A stretch of DNA of 64,000 nucleotides from Woeseiaceae bacterium (lineage in GTDB: Bacteria; Pseudomonadota; Gammaproteobacteria; Steroidobacterales; Woeseiaceae). Both the position numbers and the translations under genes were made by a program. The stretch covers positions 1 to 64,000 of the forward strand of contig JAPKEL010000001.1 of the NCBI GenBank assembly GCA_028822065.1, written 5' to 3'. The notes below the pieces were generated by a model. That model did no database searches. It had not been told where the DNA came from and was given only the letters and a program-made list of their open reading frames with translations. Position 1 is the stretch's first letter; every line of letters begins with the position of its first letter. Shown in pieces: positions 4,842 through 55,803 of the stretch.

Positions 4842-4882
4842 AATAAAAAAATGAGGCAATCAGTGAAATTTTTTAATGGGTA

Positions 4883-6808
4883 ATTACAATAAAAGATTCT
4901 TCTAAAAATAAAAATTCAAAAAAAGGGGTTACCCGGCGAGTATTTCTTGGCACCTCAGCTAGTGCTGCGGCATTAATTGGGAGTACCTCCAATGCCAATT
5001 CACAAACTACTGCAAAAAAGAACCCAGTTGTTAGTGTCCCAGCACCTTCCGAATCTCAATTAGATCGAGATGTTGGAACTCTAAAACCACCAGTCTCAAT
5101 CGAGAGGGCAGCGCAGCGTCCCGGATCTGATTTGATGGTACAGGTATTAAAAGATCTCAATATTGAATTTATTGCAGCAAATCCCGCTTCAAGCTTCGAA
5201 GGCTTGCAAGAATCAATCGTAAATTATGGGAAAGCACCAAATACAATGCCTGAGCTCATCACTGCGCTTCATGAGGAGTCAGCCGTTGATATGGCACATG
5301 GTTACGCTAAGTGCGAAGGCGCGCCCATGGCGGTAATGCTGCATGGAACAGTTGGCTTGCAGCACGCCTCCATGGCTATTTATCAAGCATACCATGACAA
5401 AACTCCAATTATTATTATCGTTGGTAGGGATGATAAATTTTTTCGTCAAGAGCAAACTGCTAATGATATTGCTGGCCTCACTAGGGCATTTACGAAATGG
5501 GATGCTCAGCCAAAATCACTCAGAGATTCACTTGCCGCAATTCAACGTGCTTATAAAGAAGCTATAACCCCACCAATGGGTCCAACTGTAATTGTAATTG
5601 ATACAGAGTTTCAGAAAGAAGAGGCGGGTGAACTTAAAATACCAACTTACACTCCTCCTGTTTTTGAAACTATAAATAAAAAACAAGCAAAACAAATAGC
5701 AGAGGACCTTTTAGAGGCAAATAATCCAAGAATACAGGTGGGAAAACTAAGGACACCAGAAGGGATTATTGATGCGATTGAATTAGCGGAATTATCTGGG
5801 TGTTCTGTAAGGACAGCTGCCGCCAATTTATCAATGAGCTTTCCGGAACGACACCCGCAAACTGGTAATGGTCATGACACGAATTATGATTATGTGTTGG
5901 GACTGGAATCAGATGGGTCGGATGTTTCAATTCAAGGGCCGAACTTATTATCAAATGCTGAAAACAGAGACCTTGCAGATATTGGTTTTGGCTTTATCAG
6001 AGATCCAGTTATTCCTCCAAGACGCGATCTTTCTGGAAGAAATGATATTACAGCAGATGCTCAAGCCAGCATCCCTATGATCATAGAGCAATATAAACGA
6101 CTTCAAACTAAAGAAGCGCTCGAAATTGTATCAGTAAGAGCCATGCAACATGCAACTACGAATACTGAAAATTACCAGAAAGAACTAAAGAATACACTTG
6201 AGAAAAAAAGAAAAGGATGGAGCTCAAGCCCGGTAAGTCTTGCAAGATTGTATTCAGAATTATGGCCTCTGATTAGAGAGCTTGATTGGTGTCTTTCTTC
6301 ACCTACTGTATTTTCCAGCCGCCATCACGTTGGCCTCTGGGATCATAATAAACCCTATAGTTATCTAGGTATGCATGGGGCTGGCGGTATTGGATATTGT
6401 ATTGGTGCATCTGCAGGGGCAGGACTTGCCGCAAAAGACCGAGACCGAATAGTGATCAATATTCAATGTGATGGAGATTTGAATTATACGCCAGGGTCTT
6501 TATGGACGGCGGCACATCACAAATTGCCTTTATTAACAATCATGCACAATAATCGAGGCTATCATCAAGAGGTAATGTACCTTCATTATATGGCTGGGGT
6601 ACGAGGCAGAGGAAGCGATCGGATGCATATTGGCACTACGTTGAGGGAGCCGTTTATTGATTATGCTAAACTTGCTGAAGCATATGGCGTTCAAAGTGAA
6701 GGACCTATTGAGGACCCGGAGAAACTTGCCGCTGCCTATAAAAGAGGCATCAAGACAGTGTTATCTGGCGAGCCTTATCTTATTGATGTTATTACTGAGC
6801 CAAGATGA
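4883..6808 (+). CDS. Tat-exported thiamine-diphosphate-dependent enzyme (start unresolved)
   Basis: A TPP-dependent enzyme of the acetolactate synthase/benzoylformate decarboxylase superfamily. The conserved glutamate is in ALHEES (about residue 131, counted from 4883). The Mg-TPP motif is CDGD at about 529-532 with the distal NN at 556-557; Cys replaces the usual first Gly. Upstream of the first TTG/ATG pair (5132/5135) the same frame continues with a clear twin-arginine signal, TRRVFLGTSASAAALIG, back to a stop at 4874. No ATG, GTG or TTG occurs in that stretch, so the true start is uncertain (ATT at 4883 is a placeholder, or there is a frameshift after the ATG at 4876). The stop overlaps the cytochrome start as ATGA. 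Substrate unknown; 2-oxo-acid decarboxylation is the family norm. Confidence 0.85.
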   Translation: MTIKDSSKNKNSKKGVTRRVFLGTSASAAALIGSTSNANSQTTAKKNPVVSVPAPSESQLDRDVGTLKPPVSIERAAQRPGSDLMVQVLKDLNIEFIAANPASSFEGLQESIVNYGKAPNTMPELITALHEESAVDMAHGYAKCEGAPMAVMLHGTVGLQHASMAIYQAYHDKTPIIIIVGRDDKFFRQEQTANDIAGLTRAFTKWDAQPKSLRDSLAAIQRAYKEAITPPMGPTVIVIDTEFQKEEAGELKIPTYTPPVFETINKKQAKQIAEDLLEANNPRIQVGKLRTPEGIIDAIELAELSGCSVRTAAANLSMSFPERHPQTGNGHDTNYDYVLGLESDGSDVSIQGPNLLSNAENRDLADIGFGFIRDPVIPPRRDLSGRNDITADAQASIPMIIEQYKRLQTKEALEIVSVRAMQHATTNTENYQKELKNTLEKKRKGWSSSPVSLARLYSELWPLIRELDWCLSSPTVFSSRHHVGLWDHNKPYSYLGMHGAGGIGYCIGASAGAGLAAKDRDRIVINIQCDGDLNYTPGSLWTAAHHKLPLLTIMHNNRGYHQEVMYLHYMAGVRGRGSDRMHIGTTLREPFIDYAKLAEAYGVQSEGPIEDPEKLAAAYKRGIKTVLSGEPYLIDVITEPR

Positions 6809-7212
6809 ATAAACTGATCTCATATATACTTTTATTGGCTTTATTTTTATATGGTCCCATCATTAATTCAGCCGCTAATAATCAGAGCGGTGCTTCTCTT
6901 TATTTGGATCATGGTTGTTACGCTTGTCATGGCTATAATGGTACAGGCAGATACCCAATTGCCAATAATGTGAGTGGTATTATGTCCAGTGAGGCACTGT
7001 TTATTATGTTTTTGCGTTTGCGAGCAGACCTTAATCCTCTGACTCCAGCAAACAGCATGCCAAATTACAGCGAAGCTGTAATTAATGACAAACAAGCCCA
7101 AGATTTGTATGCTTACATAAACACTCTGACAGATAACCCGCCTCAAATTGAAAACATACCCACCCTTAAAGATATACTTGATAACGCTACTAGGAAAAAC
7201 GAATATGAATAA
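6805..7212 (+). CDS. Small class I cytochrome c
   Basis: A 135-residue secreted monohaem cytochrome c. It has a signal peptide (residues 1 to about 23), a haem-binding CYACH motif (Cys38, Cys41, His42) and a probable axial Met85 in SMPNY. The start overlaps the TPP-enzyme stop as ATGA, which implies translational coupling and a shared function. This makes it the likely electron acceptor for that exported enzyme, although this is inferred from context. It ends 8 bases inside the next gene. The C-terminal tail after the haem fold (KDILDNATRKNEYE) is short and polar. Confidence 0.9.
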   Translation: MNKLISYILLLALFLYGPIINSAANNQSGASLYLDHGCYACHGYNGTGRYPIANNVSGIMSSEALFIMFLRLRADLNPLTPANSMPNYSEAVINDKQAQDLYAYINTLTDNPPQIENIPTLKDILDNATRKNEYE

Positions 7213-8452
7213 GCTCACCCGAAGTATTAAATTATTTACCTTCTCTCTTCTCTTGATATTTACTCAGCAAGGGCTAATGGCACATCATTCAGCAATCGCG
7301 TTTGATAAAACAAAATCAATCACGGTCTCGGGTAAAATTATTCGCTCTGTGTGGCGTAATCCGCATATGGCGATTAACATAGAAGTTCCTGGAAATACAG
7401 ATAGCTCAGTGCTTTGGAAGATTGAAGGTCCTGGAACTACAATTCTTGCTGGTAAGGGCTTTAATAAGAAAATGCTTATGGATGCAACTAAATCCAGTGA
7501 AAATATCACGGTAGTAATGCATCCGCTTCGATCTGGAAAGCCCGGTGGTTTATTGCAAAGAATTACCCTTGCCAGTGGAGATTCCTATCAAGTTGGAGAA
7601 GAGTATCAAGATTCAGCTGCAGGGGAACAAGAACGAATAATCCCCTCTCTCGTGGAATGGACGCCTCCGCCAAAAGGGGAAACATGGCAGGAGCGAGAAT
7701 CAAAAACTCGGCCAAAAATATTACCTTTAGTCGGTAGTGATGCAAGACAAACAGGATTAGGTGCATTGGATCCTGCAAATCTAAATAAAAAAAGATCTCC
7801 AGCACCATTTGATTTAACAGGTATATGGTCTTTTAGAGGGGAAGATAGGGGCGATCAAAATTATACGTCTATGTACGGCTCTTATGAATTTAAACCTCAT
7901 CCTAAATTTACAAAAAAAGGACAAGCAACATTGGATGAATATCACAGTTATGCTCGTGCTGGTAAGCGATATTATGAACCAACGGCGAGATGTTATCCTG
8001 CTGGAATGCCACGCGTGATGACTCGTTATGGCGCATTGATGATGCTTCAACACCCAACAGCAATTTTTATGGTATCAAGATTAAATAATGAATACAGGGC
8101 AATTTGGCTAGATGGTAGGGTTCGTGAACCAATTGAGAGTAGGGATAATAATTGGAATGGTGAGTCTATCGGGCACTGGGAAGGCGATACATTGGTAGTG
8201 GAAACACTTGGCTTTACCGATGAAAATCACTTAATTCAACAAGGAATTTTTACTGGCGATCAGTTGAAAATTATCGAGCACATTACGATGCTTAACGATG
8301 GCAACACCTTAAAAATAGATTTTACCATGACCGATCCTGAGCATTGGGAAGGAGAATGGAAACATACTAAATTTCGTGATCGAACATTACGTGCAGACAT
8401 TAGAGAGGCTAATTGTTTTGCCGCTGATAATGAGCTTCTGCCAGGCATGTAA
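7205..8452 (+). CDS. Exported DUF6152 protein fused to a 'TGIW' domain
   Basis: A 415-residue secreted protein with two parts. After the signal peptide, the mature protein begins AHHSAIAFD, the hallmark of DUF6152, continuing as a small beta domain with RNPHM and a pattern like LRSGKPGG to about residue 135. The second part starts FDLTGIWSF and contains the CYPAGMPR, WLDGR and GHWEGDTLVVET motifs that recur in several neighbours. The start ATG at 7205 overlaps the cytochrome gene; an in-frame codon at 7148 would lie deep inside it. No enzyme function is known. The paired His residues at the mature N-terminus would suit metal binding, which is inference. Confidence 0.82.
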   Translation: MNKLTRSIKLFTFSLLLIFTQQGLMAHHSAIAFDKTKSITVSGKIIRSVWRNPHMAINIEVPGNTDSSVLWKIEGPGTTILAGKGFNKKMLMDATKSSENITVVMHPLRSGKPGGLLQRITLASGDSYQVGEEYQDSAAGEQERIIPSLVEWTPPPKGETWQERESKTRPKILPLVGSDARQTGLGALDPANLNKKRSPAPFDLTGIWSFRGEDRGDQNYTSMYGSYEFKPHPKFTKKGQATLDEYHSYARAGKRYYEPTARCYPAGMPRVMTRYGALMMLQHPTAIFMVSRLNNEYRAIWLDGRVREPIESRDNNWNGESIGHWEGDTLVVETLGFTDENHLIQQGIFTGDQLKIIEHITMLNDGNTLKIDFTMTDPEHWEGEWKHTKFRDRTLRADIREANCFAADNELLPGM

Positions 8453-8469
8453 TAATCACAAGGTAAATT

Positions 8470-9498
8470 ATGAAAATAATAAAACAGTTATCATGCCAAG
8501 TTTTGCTATCAAGCATCCTTATATTCAGCAGCAATGCTGCTCAATCTCATCACTCTCATGCTAACTTAAATCGCGATGACATAAGAACCTATAGCGGCAT
8601 AGTGGTGAGGTACAGTTGGACTATGCCACATGTATTTCTTAAGGTTCAAGCACCTGATAAGACCGGTAAAGTAGTTGAATATAGTATAGAGATGCAACAC
8701 CCACCTGCAATGGCAAAACGAGGTTGGGAAAAGAGAAGCTTTGTTAAAGGCGATTCAATTACCTGGGAAGGCCCACATGATTATAATGAATCGAGGCATT
8801 ACACAGGATTGAATTGGGCTGAGCGGCAAGATGGCTCGAGATTATCAATGACCGAAAAAGAAGATGGAATTATTGTTCCCTCAACAGACTTTTCGGGTTT
8901 ATGGAAAAGATCAGATTTTGATCCAAAAACAGGAAAAGCAAAATTTAACCCGCACTATAAGCCACCAATAAATTGGCCACTGACTGAGCTTGGCCAAGAA
9001 TTGGTAGATAATTTTCATGAAGATCAAAATCCCATGGTTAATTGTGGTAATCCGGGCCCCCCAAAAGCAATGATTGTCCCTTACCCAGTTATGATCACTA
9101 GACCTAATGATAAGACCATTATATTTGAAAGGGAGTTAATGTCTGATGTAAGGGTGATTAATTTAGATCACTCTGTGAAGAGAGGAACTCCATCTAAGCT
9201 TGGGCATTCTCTTGGTTGGTTTGACGATGAGAGTTTAATCGTCTTAACGGATAATTTTATCGATGATCCTTGGGGTTCTCATACTGGCATAAATTCAAGT
9301 AATCAAAAGCAGTTAACTGAAAAATTCACCTTATCTGGCAATGGTACTTATTTGATTGCAGAGATTACGATTGATGATCCAGTGTATTTGACAGAAGCGC
9401 ATACTTTTTTCCATCGGTGGAAGAAAATTGCTGACCGGGACGTAATACAAGCACCATGTACAATGGAGAGTGCAAAACTATATTTACAAGGAGGTTAA
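8470..9498 (+). CDS. Second exported DUF6152/'SGLW' two-domain protein
   Basis: 342 residues with a signal peptide ending SNAAQS and a mature start HHSHANLN. It is a DUF6152-type domain (TMPHVFLKV, KRGWEKRSFVKGD) followed by a C-terminal domain starting DFSGLWKR with the cysteine-containing NCGNPGPP and a GHSLGWFDDESLIV block. Its architecture matches the preceding gene, but the sequence has diverged, so the pair are ancient paralogs. The gene follows after 17 bases with AAGG before the ATG, so the same operon is likely. Function unknown. Confidence 0.8.
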   Translation: MKIIKQLSCQVLLSSILIFSSNAAQSHHSHANLNRDDIRTYSGIVVRYSWTMPHVFLKVQAPDKTGKVVEYSIEMQHPPAMAKRGWEKRSFVKGDSITWEGPHDYNESRHYTGLNWAERQDGSRLSMTEKEDGIIVPSTDFSGLWKRSDFDPKTGKAKFNPHYKPPINWPLTELGQELVDNFHEDQNPMVNCGNPGPPKAMIVPYPVMITRPNDKTIIFERELMSDVRVINLDHSVKRGTPSKLGHSLGWFDDESLIVLTDNFIDDPWGSHTGINSSNQKQLTEKFTLSGNGTYLIAEITIDDPVYLTEAHTFFHRWKKIADRDVIQAPCTMESAKLYLQGG

Positions 9499-9499
9499 A

Positions 9500-9522
9500 A
9501 AATAAAAAGGTTTACTTAACCT
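9500..9522 (-). terminator. Weak intrinsic terminator of the LigB-like gene
   Basis: Read on the minus strand, the stop codon region forms a 5-bp hairpin AGGTT/AACCT with loop AAGTA, followed at once by TTTTTATTTTTT. The stem is short, so termination would be weak. It lies in the 13-base gap between the convergent genes ending at 9498 and 9512. Confidence 0.3.
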
Positions 9523-10330
9523 GCATTGAAGCAACCAGACAGCCGCAAGCAAATTCAGGTATTGGTTCATAAAAATATACATCGCCCTTACCGCCAGCAG
9601 CTCCAGCAATAGCGATCGATGTCCTGATTTCAAATGCACCTTGGCCAGCAGATGTTAAAATTTCATTATCTTTATAGGCTGTCATAGCGGTACGATTATT
9701 TTCTTGCCAGTAACCTAGAAACTCCCTATCCCAAACCTCATTTATTTTCCCGCTATCTGGTGTACAAGGCCAATGGGACGTACCGCCCGTTCCAATTATT
9801 GCTATTCTTTCTGGTACATTATCAAAAGCCTTTCTCAGTGCCCTGCCAAACTCATAACTTCTTGATAAGGGTGTGAAGGGAGGCGATTGGCAATTTATAT
9901 TTGATGGTATGACCGGAATATCATAATCGGGCGTAAGGTGATGCAAAGGTACCATCATCCCGTGATCAAATTTCCATTCTTCGACATATGACACGTCGAT
10001 ATCATGCAAAAGTAATGAAATGAGTTTTTTTGATAAATCCAGGTCACCTGGAATATTAACTCTATCAATACCAAGCCACTCAGGATCCTCGATAGGCCCT
10101 TCATAATGATTCGCCATTCCAACCGCATAGGTAGGCATATTGTTGTTGAAAAAATTTGCATAGTGCTCAGCTGAAATTAGAAAAATAGCATCTGGGCGTG
10201 ACGTTTTAATTTCATCTCTCAAGCGATCAAATTGACTTAGTAATGAGGCAAGATCCTTTTGATTCGCTATTTCTGGGCGACTTGTAATGCCAGGTGCGTG
10301 GCAACATATACCCGCATATACCATACTCAT
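9512..10330 (-). CDS. Class III extradiol ring-cleavage dioxygenase-like protein (LigB superfamily)
   Basis: 272 residues of the LigB/class III extradiol dioxygenase superfamily, which uses non-haem Fe(II) to open catechol-type rings. Characteristic pieces are CHAPG near the N-terminus (metal-ligand His), SAEHYANFF around residue 55, FDHGMMVPL about residue 122 and IGTGGTSHWP about residue 178. No signal peptide is present, so it is cytoplasmic, unlike most neighbours. With the adjacent GST gene it may form a small aromatic-degradation unit on the opposite strand, inserted between the fused and split DUF6152 gene sets. The substrate is not deducible. Confidence 0.85.
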   Translation of the reverse strand: MSMVYAGICCHAPGITSRPEIANQKDLASLLSQFDRLRDEIKTSRPDAIFLISAEHYANFFNNNMPTYAVGMANHYEGPIEDPEWLGIDRVNIPGDLDLSKKLISLLLHDIDVSYVEEWKFDHGMMVPLHHLTPDYDIPVIPSNINCQSPPFTPLSRSYEFGRALRKAFDNVPERIAIIGTGGTSHWPCTPDSGKINEVWDREFLGYWQENNRTAMTAYKDNEILTSAGQGAFEIRTSIAIAGAAGGKGDVYFYEPIPEFACGCLVASMQVK

Positions 10331-12013: not shown

Positions 12014-12418
12014 ATGAGTTGTAATTCACCTTCCATAAGAAACACTGTATTAGTTTATCTATTATTAAGTTACTTTCAATTCGCTGTTGCCCATCATTCT
12101 AGTGCGATGTTTGATAAAACTGACATTCGCACATTAAATGCAACAGTTAAGGAGTTTCAATGGGCTAACCCACATGTCTGGATTCAGATATACATTTTAA
12201 ATTCCGATCAAGAGCGAGAAGAATGGAGTATTGAGGGTATCGGGATCAATACTTTATTCAGAAGAGGGTGGCGACCAAATTCTTTTGTTGCTGGAGATTC
12301 AATTCAAATTAGTTTTAATCCAATGTTAGATGGGACAAATGCAGGAGCATTTATTGGTGCTAAATTTGAAGATGGAAAAATACTGGGAAAGTGGAGCATG
12401 TTAAAAACGAAGGATTAA
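12014..12418 (+). CDS. Exported stand-alone DUF6152 protein
   Basis: 134 residues with a signal peptide and a mature start AHHSSAMFDK, then VKEFQWANPHVWIQI and FRRGWRPNSFVAGDSI, the standard DUF6152 pattern. It is the single-domain counterpart of the N-terminal halves at 7205 and 8470, and shares an operon with the single-domain gene before it. It ends in a 4-base convergent overlap with the Mpo1-like gene. Biochemical role unknown. Confidence 0.85.
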   Translation: MSCNSPSIRNTVLVYLLLSYFQFAVAHHSSAMFDKTDIRTLNATVKEFQWANPHVWIQIYILNSDQEREEWSIEGIGINTLFRRGWRPNSFVAGDSIQISFNPMLDGTNAGAFIGAKFEDGKILGKWSMLKTKD

Positions 12419-38062: not shown

Positions 38063-38066
38063 ATTG

Positions 38067-39758
38067 ATGCAAATAAAAAACCTCAAAAAACATTACCTAT
38101 TATTGTTTGTAACGCTGCTTGCTATGTTTTTGGTGTACCCATCTCAATGGTATCCTTTTGATATGCGTTTGACGCTTACTTCATGGTTTGGTGCGGAAAA
38201 TTATCGAGCTTTACCGCAATCAACAATCACTCCAAATTCACAGTCTGAATTGGCGTGCCCTAATGATCCTTCGGGTTGGCGTGCTTCGCAAATTATCGAT
38301 GGAGTTAGTATTGAAGAATCGTTACCTTGTTTAGCGGACAATCCATATGGTGTGGCAGCATTTGTATTGGGTACGAATAATGTTAGTAAAGAAACATTAC
38401 AACGCAGTGGATTAACCTCAGATGCAATTGTAAAAGGCAGAGATCTTGATGGTGATGGTGATCCTGATGAGATTCATATTCGCCTTGAAGTTGCCGAGCT
38501 TAATGGCAGTTCTCCAATTTCCAAAAGACCCGTTACAACTTATGATATCGCTCCAGGTATACAACCTGGAATATGGGTATTCGCTCCAAAGTTAATTGGT
38601 ATGGCTGTTGAAAATTTTGAGACGCAAGAAGCCAGATACTCATTAAAGCTCCCTTCACCAGCAATTCGTGTTGAGCAAGGAGATGTCGTTAAAATTACCC
38701 TTGAGAATACACATTACATGCCTCATACATTGCATCTACATGGCGCAGATCACGGCTTCATCGATAATACAGGGGAAGGCAATGACGGTGTCCCTTTGAC
38801 AAGTGAATTACCTATTCTTCCTGGACAATCTCGAACTTATAATCTAACACCGAGAAAGGCTGGAACAATGTTTTATCACTGCCATGTTCAGCCGCATGTA
38901 CATGTTCAAATGGGTTTGCAAGGCTTATTCATAATAGAAGAAAATAGACCAAATAATAATCTACAGACAATGAACTTAGGGGCAGGTAAAGTCAGAGCTC
39001 CTTCGCAATCCTTAAAAGAATCATACGATAGTGAATATGATTTACATTATCTTGATCTTGATAAAGAACTTGGAGCTAGAATCCAAGATAATAATGATCC
39101 AAGATTGATTACACAATCCATGCATCGTGATTACGATATCACCGATGCGAATGTTGATTTTTTTACTTTAAATGGACGTTCTTTTCCTTATACATTTAGA
39201 GAGTCTTTGATTGTTTCTCGTGAAGGTGAAAAGGCAAAATTACGTGTCGTAAATGGAGGTAGTAAAGGAATTGCATTGCATACTCATGGGCATAAATTTA
39301 CTGTTATTGAAAGAGATGGTGTTAAGTTACCTAAATCCAACCAAACTCCACAGGATGTGCTTTGGATGGCTACATCACAGCGTTATGACTTGGATCTTTC
39401 TTTTATAAATGACGGCACTCGGACTTATGGGCCTGGCATTTGGTTGTATCACGATCATCAAAATAAGGGCACGACAACCGATGGTATTGGTCCTGGAGGT
39501 AATATAAGTGCCATAGTTGATAAAGAATACCTAGATGAATCAGGTTGGCCAATGACACGTGGGGTTGGGTATAGTCAATATTTTAGCGCTGATTATTATA
39601 AAAAGAAGATTCCAATTTGGGAGAGTTATATCCCATCATTTTATGCTGAACCAGCAAAAGACAATATTTTATTGTTTAGGATTCTCTTACTGATGCTATT
39701 TTTTGGGAGCTTTCTAGCAATATTACGGTCTTTGTATACTCAAAGAAAAAAAGGATGA
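38067..39758 (+). CDS. Membrane-anchored multicopper oxidase
   Basis: 563 residues with a hydrophobic N-terminal segment and a C-terminal helix (about 533-552), so it is held in the inner membrane facing the periplasm. Copper motifs: HLHG (His223, His225), YHCHVQPHVHVQMG (His271, Cys272, His273, His277, Met282; type 1 plus type 2/3), HTHGH (His405, 407, 409) and YHDH (His462, Asp463, His464). Type 1 copper is thus in the first cupredoxin domain, while the second has Asp where Cys would be. It probably oxidises Cu(I) or another small reductant with O2. TTG 38064/ATG 38067 are adjacent; the ATG is preferred. Confidence 0.88.
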   Translation: MQIKNLKKHYLLLFVTLLAMFLVYPSQWYPFDMRLTLTSWFGAENYRALPQSTITPNSQSELACPNDPSGWRASQIIDGVSIEESLPCLADNPYGVAAFVLGTNNVSKETLQRSGLTSDAIVKGRDLDGDGDPDEIHIRLEVAELNGSSPISKRPVTTYDIAPGIQPGIWVFAPKLIGMAVENFETQEARYSLKLPSPAIRVEQGDVVKITLENTHYMPHTLHLHGADHGFIDNTGEGNDGVPLTSELPILPGQSRTYNLTPRKAGTMFYHCHVQPHVHVQMGLQGLFIIEENRPNNNLQTMNLGAGKVRAPSQSLKESYDSEYDLHYLDLDKELGARIQDNNDPRLITQSMHRDYDITDANVDFFTLNGRSFPYTFRESLIVSREGEKAKLRVVNGGSKGIALHTHGHKFTVIERDGVKLPKSNQTPQDVLWMATSQRYDLDLSFINDGTRTYGPGIWLYHDHQNKGTTTDGIGPGGNISAIVDKEYLDESGWPMTRGVGYSQYFSADYYKKKIPIWESYIPSFYAEPAKDNILLFRILLLMLFFGSFLAILRSLYTQRKKG

Positions 39759-40396
39759 TTATGATCAATCAGAAATTATGGGTGATCTTATTAAGTCTAA
39801 TTTTTATGCATCAATCGCATGGATTGCAACATTCAATGAGTGAGGATTATGGCAGCATGGTTATGAGCAGTAATCACAATAATTTACCGTTGGGCTGCGA
39901 AAGAATCTCCGGCGAAGAGAATATTATTGTAAGTGCTGGGCAACGATATGCGAAAGATATTCCCGGAACAATTTATGGCATGAATCAGCATGAATGGGAT
40001 GTTGATCCTTGCACCAGAGTGACGGTCACATTTATCAATGAGGACGATGTCCGTCATCAATGGATGGTGCATGGCTTACCAAAATATTTATATCCCGCTG
40101 GAATGTTCTATATAGAAGCGATGGGGGGCAAAACCGCAACTGGAACATTTATTGTTCCAAGTGAGGATCGTAATTATCTAGTTCATTGTGATATGACTCA
40201 ACATATGGAAATGGGGATGCGAGGCCAACTCGTTGTGGGTGAAGGGAGCGGTGATTTATGGGCTGTTACTGGAATCACTGATCCTTTTTATCGGGCTTCT
40301 TACTTACCAGATAATTTAATTTATTTGTCCCTCGTGGTACTGTTTTTAGGATATTCTGTAACATCATGGCTTGTGCGCATGCGTCAGAAACGTTAA
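39755..40396 (+). CDS. Membrane-anchored cupredoxin (type 1 copper protein)
   Basis: 213 residues with a signal peptide, a plastocyanin/nitrosocyanin-like cupredoxin fold and a C-terminal membrane helix (LIYLSLVVLFLGYSV). Type 1 copper ligands are visible: His in DVRHQWMVHG, then Cys, His and Met in HCDMTQHMEMGM. The N-terminus is His/Met-rich (HQSHGLQHSMSEDYGSMVM), a common feature of copper-handling proteins. The start overlaps the oxidase stop as ATGA, so the two are translationally coupled. The cupredoxin probably exchanges electrons or copper with the oxidase. Confidence 0.87.
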   Translation: MIMINQKLWVILLSLIFMHQSHGLQHSMSEDYGSMVMSSNHNNLPLGCERISGEENIIVSAGQRYAKDIPGTIYGMNQHEWDVDPCTRVTVTFINEDDVRHQWMVHGLPKYLYPAGMFYIEAMGGKTATGTFIVPSEDRNYLVHCDMTQHMEMGMRGQLVVGEGSGDLWAVTGITDPFYRASYLPDNLIYLSLVVLFLGYSVTSWLVRMRQKR

Positions 40397-52593: not shown

Positions 52594-53952
52594 ATGCCTA
52601 TAGCAGTTGTCGTAATATTTTTGGTTGTTGGTTCAGTTGTATTCCATTTTGTAAGTCCATGGACATTTACCCCATTGGCATCAAATTGGAGTCAGATTGA
52701 CGATACAATTGATCTTACATTCTGGGTGACAGGATTTGTCTTTGTCGCAATTAACCTCTTTATGGCTTATGCAGTCATTAAATACAGAGCGGCACCAGGG
52801 AAACGTGCTGCATACGATCCAGAGAATACCAAATTAGAAACTTGGCTTACAGTATTTACAACTGTTGGTATTGTCGCGATGTTGGCGCCGGGACTCTTAG
52901 TATGGGGTCGTTTTGTCGATGTTCCTGATAATGCGATGCAGATCGAAGTATTGGGTCAGCAATGGCATTGGAGTTATCGTCTACCTGGTGCTGATGGAGA
53001 ATTTGGTGATGTAAGCGCTAAATTAATCACAAAAGAAAATCCTTTTGGTATGGATTATGACGATCCTGTTGGGCAAGATGATGTTCTTATCAGTAGCCCG
53101 GAACTCCATTTACCTATTAATGTGCCGGTCAATTTGAATTTACGCTCAAAGGATGTGCTGCATAACTTCACAGTTGCACAGTTTAGGGTAAAAATGGATA
53201 TGGTTCCTGGAATGGTCACCAGCTTGTGGTTTACACCAACAAAAGCCGGACGTTATGATTTATTGTGTGAAGAATTGTGCGGTATTGCTCATCATACAAT
53301 GCGTGGAGCAGTAATCGTAGAAGAACCAGAAGACTTTGATAACTGGGTAGCCTCTAATCCGACTTTTTCTGATACACAAGTTCGACTCGCTTATAACCCG
53401 GAGCCAAATTCTGCCGCTGCCCAATATGCAGTTTGTGCTGCGTGCCATGGACATCAAGGTGAAGGCATGGTGGTTTTAAATGCTCCAAAAATTTCAGGTC
53501 AAAGTGAGTGGTATTTAAGAAAACAACTTGAAAATTATAAAGGCGGACTTCGTGGTTCTCATAAAGATGATATTTATGGCCAACAGATGGCACCAATGTC
53601 AATGGTTCTTTTTAATGATACTGCTATAGATAATGTGATTGCTCATATCCAGACATTTCCTGACAATCCTGCCCCAAAAACAATTGAAGGCGATATAGAA
53701 AGCGGGAAAAAGACCTATGCGGTTTGTGCCTATTGTCATGGCGGTAATGCCCAAGGTACTAAGGCAATGAATGCACCAAGAATGGCTGGTATGACGGATT
53801 GGTATCTGCAGAGGCAACTACAAAATTTCAAACATGGAATACGTGGTCAGCATCCTCAAGATTATTATGGTAAGCAGATGAGTTTTATGGCAAGAATCTT
53901 GCAAGATGATAAGAAAATAGATGATCTTGTGGCTTATATAAATACATTGTAA
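52594..53952 (+). CDS. ctaC: Cytochrome c oxidase subunit II fused to two cytochrome c domains (caa3 type)
   Basis: 452 residues: two N-terminal helices, the cupredoxin domain with CuA ligands His190, Cys225, Cys229, His233 and Met236 (CEELCGIAHHTM), then two tandem cytochrome c domains with CAACH (281-285) and CAYCH (378-382). The two haem domains are internal repeats; both contain APK/APR-x-(S/A)G, WYL and QLxNxKxGxRG blocks. No lipobox or cleaved signal is apparent. It brings electrons to the CuA centre. The fused dihaem tail shows electrons can enter without a separate cytochrome. Confidence 0.93.
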   Translation: MPIAVVVIFLVVGSVVFHFVSPWTFTPLASNWSQIDDTIDLTFWVTGFVFVAINLFMAYAVIKYRAAPGKRAAYDPENTKLETWLTVFTTVGIVAMLAPGLLVWGRFVDVPDNAMQIEVLGQQWHWSYRLPGADGEFGDVSAKLITKENPFGMDYDDPVGQDDVLISSPELHLPINVPVNLNLRSKDVLHNFTVAQFRVKMDMVPGMVTSLWFTPTKAGRYDLLCEELCGIAHHTMRGAVIVEEPEDFDNWVASNPTFSDTQVRLAYNPEPNSAAAQYAVCAACHGHQGEGMVVLNAPKISGQSEWYLRKQLENYKGGLRGSHKDDIYGQQMAPMSMVLFNDTAIDNVIAHIQTFPDNPAPKTIEGDIESGKKTYAVCAYCHGGNAQGTKAMNAPRMAGMTDWYLQRQLQNFKHGIRGQHPQDYYGKQMSFMARILQDDKKIDDLVAYINTL

Positions 53953-54009
53953 AAGAAGTTTAAAAATTAAAATTCAATTTCAAACAGAAAGAAAAGTAAG
54001 GGGAGAAGA

Positions 54010-55803
54010 ATGGCCTTTGTAGCAATAGCTGATCGTGATCATGAGCAAGAGCATCATGATCCTCAAACATTTCTAACAAAATATGTATGGAGTCAAGACC
54101 ATAAAGTGATCGCTATTCAGTACGGCGGTATAGCTATTTTTGTTGGTCTGATCGCTTTAGGTTTATCAATTCTAATGCGATTGCAGTTAGGATTTCCAAA
54201 TACATTCTCGGTGATAAACCCTGAAAGTTATTATCAGTTTGTGACGATGCATGGCATGATCATGGTGGTATATCTCTTAACTGCCCTTTTTCTTGGTGGT
54301 TTTGGAAATTATCTAATACCGTTGATGTGCGGTTCACGCGATATGGTGTTTCCGTTTTTAAATATGCTCAGTGTTTGGGTATATTTACTTTCTGTTCTGA
54401 TCCTCTTAGCAAGTTTTTTTGTTCCTGGAGGTACAACTGGTGCAGGGTGGACACTTTATCCTCCGCAAGCTATTTCAGCTGGTACGCCTGGTGTTGGAAT
54501 GGGTATTATATTGATGCTTGTTTCATTGGCGGTATTTATCGTGGCATTTACTATGGGCGGGCTGAATTATGTGACTACGGTGCTTCAAGCTAGATGCAAA
54601 GGTATGACATTGATGCGAATGCCTTTATCTGTATGGGGCATATTTATGGCGACTGTCCTCGGTTTATTGGCTTTTCCTGCATTACTAGTTAGTGCAATCA
54701 TGATGATTTTAGATAAAACAATCTTAACTAGTTTCTTCATGCCGGCAATGATTTCAGCCGGTGAGCAACTTAGTTATAATGATGGCAGTCCGATATTATT
54801 CCAGCATTTATTTTGGTTCTTTGGTCATCCCGAAGTATATATAGTTGCCCTTCCTGCGTTTGGTCTAGTATCAGATGTATTGGCCACGCATGCTAGAAAA
54901 AATATATTTGGTTACAGGATGATGGTTTGGGCAATCCTTGCGATTGGAGGCCTCAGTTTTGTAGTTTGGGCTCACCATATGTATGTTAGTGGTATGAATC
55001 CATATTTTGGATTTTTCTTTGCTACCACCACACTAATTATTGCTGTACCCACGGCTTTAAAAGTTTATAACTGGGTGTTAACACTTTGGCAAGGAAATAT
55101 TCACCTTAGAGTCCCTATGTTATTTGCTATTGCGTTTATTTTTACCTTTATACATGGAGGTTTGACAGGAATATTCTTAGGGAATGTTGTAGTTGATTTA
55201 CCGCTATCAGATACGTATTTTGTGGTAGCCCATTTTCACATGGTGATGGGGGTTTCGCCGGTGTTGGTTGTATTTGCAGCAATTTATCATTGGTTCCCAT
55301 TAATGTCAGGTAAGATGTTTAATGAAACTCTTGGTAAATGGCATTTTTGGCTAACTTTTTTAGGCGCTTACTCGGTTTACTTGCCAATGCATTATTTGGG
55401 TTTTCAGGGCGTACCGCGTCGTTATTTTTCAATGGGTACTACAGACTTTCTGCCTGAATCAGCTCAAATGTTAAATGCCAGTATCACAGTTTCTGCAATT
55501 ATATTGGCTGCTGCCCAATCACTCTTTTTTATAAATATATTTATGAGTTTATGGAAAGGTAAGAAGGCGGAAAAAAATTGTTGGGGAGCTACTTCACTTG
55601 AATGGCTTACGCCTGACCAACCACCAAAACATGGAAACTGGGGTCACGACTTACCCGTGGTTCATCGATGGGCTTATGATTATAGTGTTCCAGGGCAAGA
55701 GCAAGATTTTACACCACAAACCGTACCAGCAAGTGAGGTTCCTGTAGGTCGAGATCATGGAGTAACTCATGAGAGTATGCTTGAGGAATTTCAAGAGAAA
55801 TGA
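54010..55803 (+). CDS. ctaD: Cytochrome c oxidase subunit I
   Basis: The 597-residue catalytic subunit. Haem a ligand His81 (TMHGMIM), CuB ligands His273 (cross-linked to Tyr277 in GHPEVY) and His322-His323 (WAHHMYVSG), and haem ligands His408 and His410 (AHFHM) are all present. The Glu275 of GHPEVY marks an A1-type haem-copper oxidase with a standard D-channel. It is an inner-membrane proton pump that reduces O2 to water. AAGGGGAGAAGA before the ATG is a strong ribosome-binding site. The stop overlaps the next gene as ATGA. Confidence 0.96.
   Translation: MAFVAIADRDHEQEHHDPQTFLTKYVWSQDHKVIAIQYGGIAIFVGLIALGLSILMRLQLGFPNTFSVINPESYYQFVTMHGMIMVVYLLTALFLGGFGNYLIPLMCGSRDMVFPFLNMLSVWVYLLSVLILLASFFVPGGTTGAGWTLYPPQAISAGTPGVGMGIILMLVSLAVFIVAFTMGGLNYVTTVLQARCKGMTLMRMPLSVWGIFMATVLGLLAFPALLVSAIMMILDKTILTSFFMPAMISAGEQLSYNDGSPILFQHLFWFFGHPEVYIVALPAFGLVSDVLATHARKNIFGYRMMVWAILAIGGLSFVVWAHHMYVSGMNPYFGFFFATTTLIIAVPTALKVYNWVLTLWQGNIHLRVPMLFAIAFIFTFIHGGLTGIFLGNVVVDLPLSDTYFVVAHFHMVMGVSPVLVVFAAIYHWFPLMSGKMFNETLGKWHFWLTFLGAYSVYLPMHYLGFQGVPRRYFSMGTTDFLPESAQMLNASITVSAIILAAAQSLFFINIFMSLWKGKKAEKNCWGATSLEWLTPDQPPKHGNWGHDLPVVHRWAYDYSVPGQEQDFTPQTVPASEVPVGRDHGVTHESMLEEFQEK

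Follow-up and report, generated by a model that had tools for sequence, protein, structure and literature searches.

Why would a thiamine diphosphate (ThDP) enzyme carry a leader for protein export and overlap the gene of a secreted cytochrome c? To our knowledge, ThDP enzymes are regarded as cytoplasmic. The window analysed here, 64,000 nucleotides of a contig from a Woeseiaceae bacterium, encodes such a pair close to one end. A preliminary description had read the pair as oxidising a 2-oxo acid or aldehyde in the periplasm and passing the electrons to the respiratory chain, and had stated that, as far as its author knew, no such system is described. We likewise found none in the open-licence papers searched, nor any description there of an exported ThDP enzyme. 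The combination of a twin-arginine (Tat) leader, a ThDP enzyme and a cytochrome points to a putative, undescribed route for keto-acid breakdown outside the inner membrane.

A ThDP enzyme with a twin-arginine leader

The ThDP gene lies on the forward strand in a frame that is open from 4877, directly after a TAA codon at 4874–4876, and that ends with a TGA at 6806–6808. The preliminary description began the feature at 4877, which holds as the opening of the frame but not as a start codon. Read from an ATT at 4883, the gene (4883–6808) encodes a benzoylformate-decarboxylase-like protein of 641 residues, with the twin arginines at residues 18–19 within KKGVTRRVFLGTSASAAALIG, close to the N-terminus. 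Ahead of this motif the sole possible initiation codons are the ATT at 4883 and an ATA at 4889, and ATG, GTG and TTG are all absent upstream of the Tat motif in the window's genus. The ATA and a purine-rich stretch 5′ of it are common to five species of the genus (window positions 4877–4940 and loci L007, L008, L009 and L010, equivalent to L034, L029, L093 and L030), a pattern that suggests AUA (or AUU) as the probable start codon of the gene in these species. A frameshift introduced by assembly was rejected as the cause of the missing ATG because the same arrangement recurs in all five. In several other genera the corresponding place is occupied by an ATG.

The leader spans 4919–5008 on the forward strand, with the arginines encoded at 4934–4939 and followed by a hydrophobic h-region rich in Ala and Ser; a variable linker joins it to the enzyme core, which begins at about 5120. 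R18, R19 and F21 are nearly invariant in the family alignment. The twin-arginine leader named in the preliminary description is present, and no member of the family was found to lack it, which would have spoken against export: RRxF[LI] or a close variant occurs in all 109 members whose 5′ end is intact. In the narrower set of members with full context (duplicates removed, 5′ end intact, enough downstream DNA) the count is 104 of 104, including one, L026, overlooked by the script and scored by eye. The genome encodes both TatC and CcmH. From the RR motif, the hydrophobic stretch that follows it and the presence of TatC, we infer that the enzyme is exported.

Domain organisation and fold of the enzyme

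Pfam matches to TPP_enzyme_N (6.8e-17) and TPP_enzyme_C (6.1e-21) place the PYR domain at 5123–5437 and the PP domain at 6338–6790, both on the forward strand. The former contains H130 and E131 (5270–5275), the second of which is the aligned counterpart of catalytic Glu47 in benzoylformate decarboxylase (BFDC); the latter contains D530-G-D (from 6470) and N557 (6551–6553), which together form the GDG...N motif for Mg/diphosphate binding. Across an alignment of 64 sequences, H130, E131, D530, G531 and N557 are invariant. The two TPP domains, the catalytic Glu and the GDG...N motif assign the protein to the ThDP decarboxylase/POX/AHAS superfamily.

An AlphaFold2 model of the enzyme (pLDDT 86.7) finds its best PDB matches among BFDCs (Foldseek; VIA-align Z 40.7 over 486 residues, 24% identity). 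Acetohydroxyacid synthases (AHAS) and benzaldehyde lyase come next at Z 38–39.6, and because they rank so close behind BFDC the fold alone does not identify the reaction. With BFDC (1bfd, 4q9d, 6qsi) the window enzyme shares the whole-chain ThDP fold (Z about 40), the catalytic Glu, GDG...N and the order of domains. In contrast to BFDC, which is cytoplasmic and has no leader, it belongs to a family in which every intact member has one; it also differs in its low identity, in a longer loop after the NNR motif, in having a cytochrome partner instead of an aldehyde dehydrogenase and in scoring far below the curated cut-off. The position of BFDC His70 is His in most family members and Gln or Ser in some, and the region of BFDC His281 gives no sequence alignment to the window enzyme.

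Scores against curated NCBIfam models were 158.5 bits for NF005485 (BFDC equivalog; cut-off 493) and 100.9 bits for TIGR00118 (acetolactate synthase; cut-off 538). No curated equivalog threshold was reached, and an ordinary acetolactate synthase, glyoxylate carboligase or BFDC was rejected on scores far below the cut-offs. Pfam reports no central TPP_enzyme_M domain in the window enzyme, and the ThDP family alignment has no invariant Cys; for these two reasons FAD or an FeS cluster is not indicated by the sequence, although the enzyme may bind FAD.

The partner cytochrome c

As the preliminary description had it, the two genes are joined by a stop/start overlap (ATGA), the cytochrome ATG at 6805–6807 overlapping the TGA of the ThDP gene. 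The downstream gene (6805–7212, forward strand) encodes 135 residues, and its reading as a secreted monohaem cytochrome c is borne out by an N-terminal hydrophobic segment, a CYACH motif at 6916–6930 and a match to Pfam Cytochrom_C (1.3e-9). C38, C41, H42, M85 and P86 are invariant among 40 sequences. Having a CxxCH haem site, a distal Met (Met85) and a secretion signal, the partner is, by prediction, a class I His/Met cytochrome, and its haem makes it necessarily periplasmic. A hydrophobic segment precedes the haem motif in 108 of 109 partner cytochromes. The structure model of the cytochrome gave weak PDB matches only, 1dii and 2d0w among them, with c-type cytochromes near the top. Nine of the 109 cytochromes, a subgroup comprising L128, L130–L136 and L144, have two haem motifs rather than one.

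Conservation of the gene pair

A homologue of the ThDP enzyme occurs in 18 of 60 relatives, and in this sample a CxxCH protein lies downstream of every homologue for which downstream DNA is available, to 39% identity. A plasmid copy from Caballeronia zhejiangensis, 35% identical, still has a c-type cytochrome downstream. Scanning named genomes yielded 79 loci, neither partner being absent from any locus of complete sequence, and their titles include Woeseiaceae, Pseudohongiella, Pseudomonadales, Caulobacterales, a beta proteobacterium and several groups of Acidobacteriota. Overall the family comprises Woeseiaceae, other Gammaproteobacteria, Betaproteobacteria, Caulobacterales and Acidobacteriota, and thus spans two phyla or more. 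The family is carried by 39 of 246 sampled genomes of the window's order; a plasmid collection gave one match, and class- and phylum-wide sampling gave few besides distant ones. Contigs titled Klebsiella pneumoniae or Bordetella parapertussis (L050, L082, L054) also carry the family and are probably misnamed environmental metagenome bins.

Within the set of 104, the cytochrome gene directly follows the ThDP gene in 97, a figure that equals the script's own after removal of one false match (L156) and addition of an N-masked copy recovered by profile (L065). Adding two TPP-TPP-cyt tandems and two TPP-cyt-cyt-TPP arrangements brings the members in cytochrome operons to 101, so that genomes with adjacent homologues are the rule and the pair withstands the objection, raised in advance, that it might not be conserved. 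These duplicated modules (L058, L091, L103 and L105) are found in Acidobacteriota and may perhaps encode hetero-oligomeric enzymes. They and L065 had appeared as exceptions and were rejected as such, being tandem modules or, in one case, an N-masked cytochrome gene. Three orphans without an adjacent cytochrome (L154, L156, L161) belong to Acidobacteriota genomes that hold other copies too; the candidate beside L156 was rejected, as it proved to be a CSFCH protein that is unrelated and goes unmatched by the cytochrome profile. Among 31 other, more distant ThDP homologues, a cytochrome directly downstream was found in none.

The distance between the two genes is at most 15 nt in 80 of 94 cases. 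As background, 2 of 528 other open reading frames flanking homologous loci are followed by a short CxxCH frame, as against 97 of 104 for the ThDP gene, and a chance overlap of two genes was rejected on this comparison. The flank script drops frames below 110 residues and many overlapping ones, recovering the ThDP–cytochrome pairing itself in 49 of 89, and was for that reason used for the background alone. Pairwise divergences of enzyme and cytochrome correlate closely (Spearman 0.86 over 90 pairs; permutation null maximum 0.18). Such co-divergence shows that the two are inherited or transferred together, not that they make physical contact.

Phylogeny of the Tat-bearing clade

A quickly built tree of 93 sequences, with SH-aLRT as its sole support measure and some long branches, gathers the Tat-bearing enzymes into a single clade of 74 rows (SH-aLRT 99). 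Four enzymes without a Tat leader form the sister group (SH-aLRT 98), and beside these four lie genes for aldehyde dehydrogenases (L190, L192), LigXa-type Rieske oxygenases (L190, L191) and an amidohydrolase.

Well apart stands another ThDP clade, whose N-terminal pattern is ISRRxFxxxLxAxGxxxxxA (L155, L160, L169, L170, L172, L173, L180, L185 and L111; larger regions in L194 and L196–L200) and which is possibly Tat-exported as well. It resembles the present family in joining a ThDP enzyme to a Tat-like N-terminus but forms a separate clade, scores about 200 bits against the profile and has no cytochrome c directly downstream. One member, L196, does have a central TPP_enzyme_M domain. Neighbours in this group include a PQQ dehydrogenase (L197) and a GMC oxidoreductase with a haem protein (L198). 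RR matches in L109, L110, L113, L171 and L175 were discarded as upstream frame extensions or as lacking a Tat-like context.

Genomic neighbourhood

The cytochrome gene is itself overlapped at its end by the ATG of a gene for a secreted DUF6152 protein (7205–8452, forward strand), which in this genus stands third in the operon but is not universal in the family. A second DUF6152 protein follows on the same strand (8470–9498) and a third, also secreted, at 12014–12418. DUF6152, which the open-licence literature searched does not mention, is the commonest neighbour besides the pair itself, at 18 of 75 loci, and no other family exceeds that count.

On the opposite strand, a LigB-type extradiol dioxygenase (9512–10330; PF02900, 2.6e-36) represents families that recur at 7 and 4 of 75 related loci. 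Elsewhere the neighbours include P450, MFS, MarR, FAA-hydrolase and protocatechuate-type genes, and at one locus PrpF, an RraA-like aldolase and an amidohydrolase. These neighbours, found at a minority of loci and mostly in close relatives, hint weakly at an aromatic substrate, as do the LigXa-type Rieske oxygenases next to the sister enzymes; because the neighbouring pathway genes vary, context does not fix it.

A possible periplasmic oxidative module

We propose, at about even confidence, that the pair acts as a periplasmic 2-oxo-acid-oxidising module in which a cytochrome stands in place of an aldehyde dehydrogenase. The BFDC-fold enzyme would fold in the cytoplasm before export by Tat, and its dedicated class I cytochrome c would depend on the Ccm system for maturation in the periplasm. 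Attack on a 2-oxo acid, the presumed substrate, or on a related ketone or aldehyde would release CO2 and leave the ThDP enamine (Breslow) intermediate or an aldehyde. The cytochrome would then receive two electrons, one at a time and presumably straight from the ThDP enzyme, and hand them on to a terminal oxidase; the carbon would therefore leave as an acid. One-electron acceptors such as ferricyanide can oxidise ThDP enamine intermediates.

The cytochrome would in this way substitute for the NAD-dependent aldehyde dehydrogenase found beside some of the cytoplasmic sister enzymes; we assign it the oxidative step because sister loci have aldehyde dehydrogenases where the exported clade constantly has a cytochrome. 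Pseudomonas bzf clusters likewise combine genes for benzoylformate catabolism with an enzyme that turns aromatic aldehydes into acids by oxidation (PMC7760541). Families other than the pair reach at most 18 of 75 loci, so that no other dehydrogenase recurs regularly enough to account for the cytochrome.

Several observations count against this oxidative module: the enzyme sequence shows no evident redox cofactor besides ThDP, three Acidobacteriota copies are orphans, neighbouring genes vary and the cytochrome model matches PDB entries weakly. The ThDP oxidoreductases known so far rely on FAD, FeS or lipoate. ThDP is normally bound at a dimer interface, so Tat would need to carry a dimer of ~140 kDa or the cofactor would need to bind in the periplasm. 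In its bolder form, which we advance tentatively and with some doubt, the proposal is that an enzyme free of FAD and FeS passes enamine electrons straight to haem; this would make it a periplasmic 2-oxo-acid:cytochrome c oxidoreductase and, among ThDP enzymes, the first to be exported.

A different reading, unlikely in our view, makes the exported enzyme a non-oxidative decarboxylase or lyase whose aldehyde product is oxidised by a separate periplasmic dehydrogenase of the PQQ or flavin type, with the cytochrome serving the latter. The closest fold is indeed that of a non-oxidative BFDC, a PQQ-type protein lies near a few loci (a cluster of four, including L085), and dehydrogenases occur near the distant RR-bearing group (L197, L198). 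However, none of the dehydrogenase families is conserved along with the pair, and the cytochrome tracks the ThDP enzyme in both spacing and divergence. Improbable, too, is an exported carboligase or C–C lyase acting on periplasmic aldehydes or diketones by acetolactate-synthase or benzaldehyde-lyase chemistry, with a redox-sensing or protective cytochrome. The fold ranking of AHAS and benzaldehyde lyase is compatible with such an enzyme, but a soluble class I cytochrome with His/Met ligands is made to transfer electrons and the acetolactate synthase equivalog score is far under its cut-off.

Transcriptional reasons alone can make overlapping genes adjacent, and the two might be co-transcribed neighbours with no direct functional contact; this is very improbable for a pair that is kept across phyla, to 35% identity, while its flanks change, and that is duplicated as TPP-cyt-cyt-TPP or TPP-TPP-cyt. 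Scarcely credible is a non-working Tat signal that leaves the enzyme inside, for although the leader was judged by motif only, the RR and hydrophobic stretch occur in 109 of 109 members and not in the sister clade, and the partner's haem puts it in the periplasm.

If the oxidative module holds, it would resemble pyruvate oxidase/PoxB and other FAD-linked ThDP oxidoreductases in oxidising a ThDP intermediate and feeding electrons to respiration. Those enzymes are cytoplasmic or sit on the inner face of the membrane, PoxB delivering its electrons to quinone, and we know of none that is exported or linked to a cytochrome. p-Cresol methylhydroxylase and PQQ dehydrogenases (1dii and 2d0w among the weak matches of the cytochrome model) offer the parallel of a periplasmic catalytic subunit with its own small cytochrome c, but there catalysis falls to flavin or PQQ proteins rather than to ThDP enzymes. 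The module, if real, would bring decarboxylation chemistry into the periplasm and open an additional electron entry point into the respiratory chain with as few as two genes, and straight ThDP-to-haem transfer would constitute an undescribed class of ThDP oxidoreductase. Its hosts, for the most part uncultured bacteria of sea and soil (Woeseiaceae, Bryobacteraceae and their relatives), include the window's genus with its small genomes of about 1–2 Mb, so that a real part of the organic-acid turnover in such bacteria may pass through it.

Other redox genes in the window

COX2 and COX1, subunits II and I of a cytochrome oxidase, are encoded at 52594–55803 on the forward strand, subunit II having two cytochrome c domains at its C-terminal end. 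This oxidase at 52.6 kb, which the preliminary description had named as an example of an electron sink, is present as stated and is a possible but unspecific electron acceptor for the pair. A gene for a multicopper-oxidase-domain protein (38064–39758) runs into one for a cupredoxin-like protein (39755–40396), and the two likely form another periplasmic redox pair.
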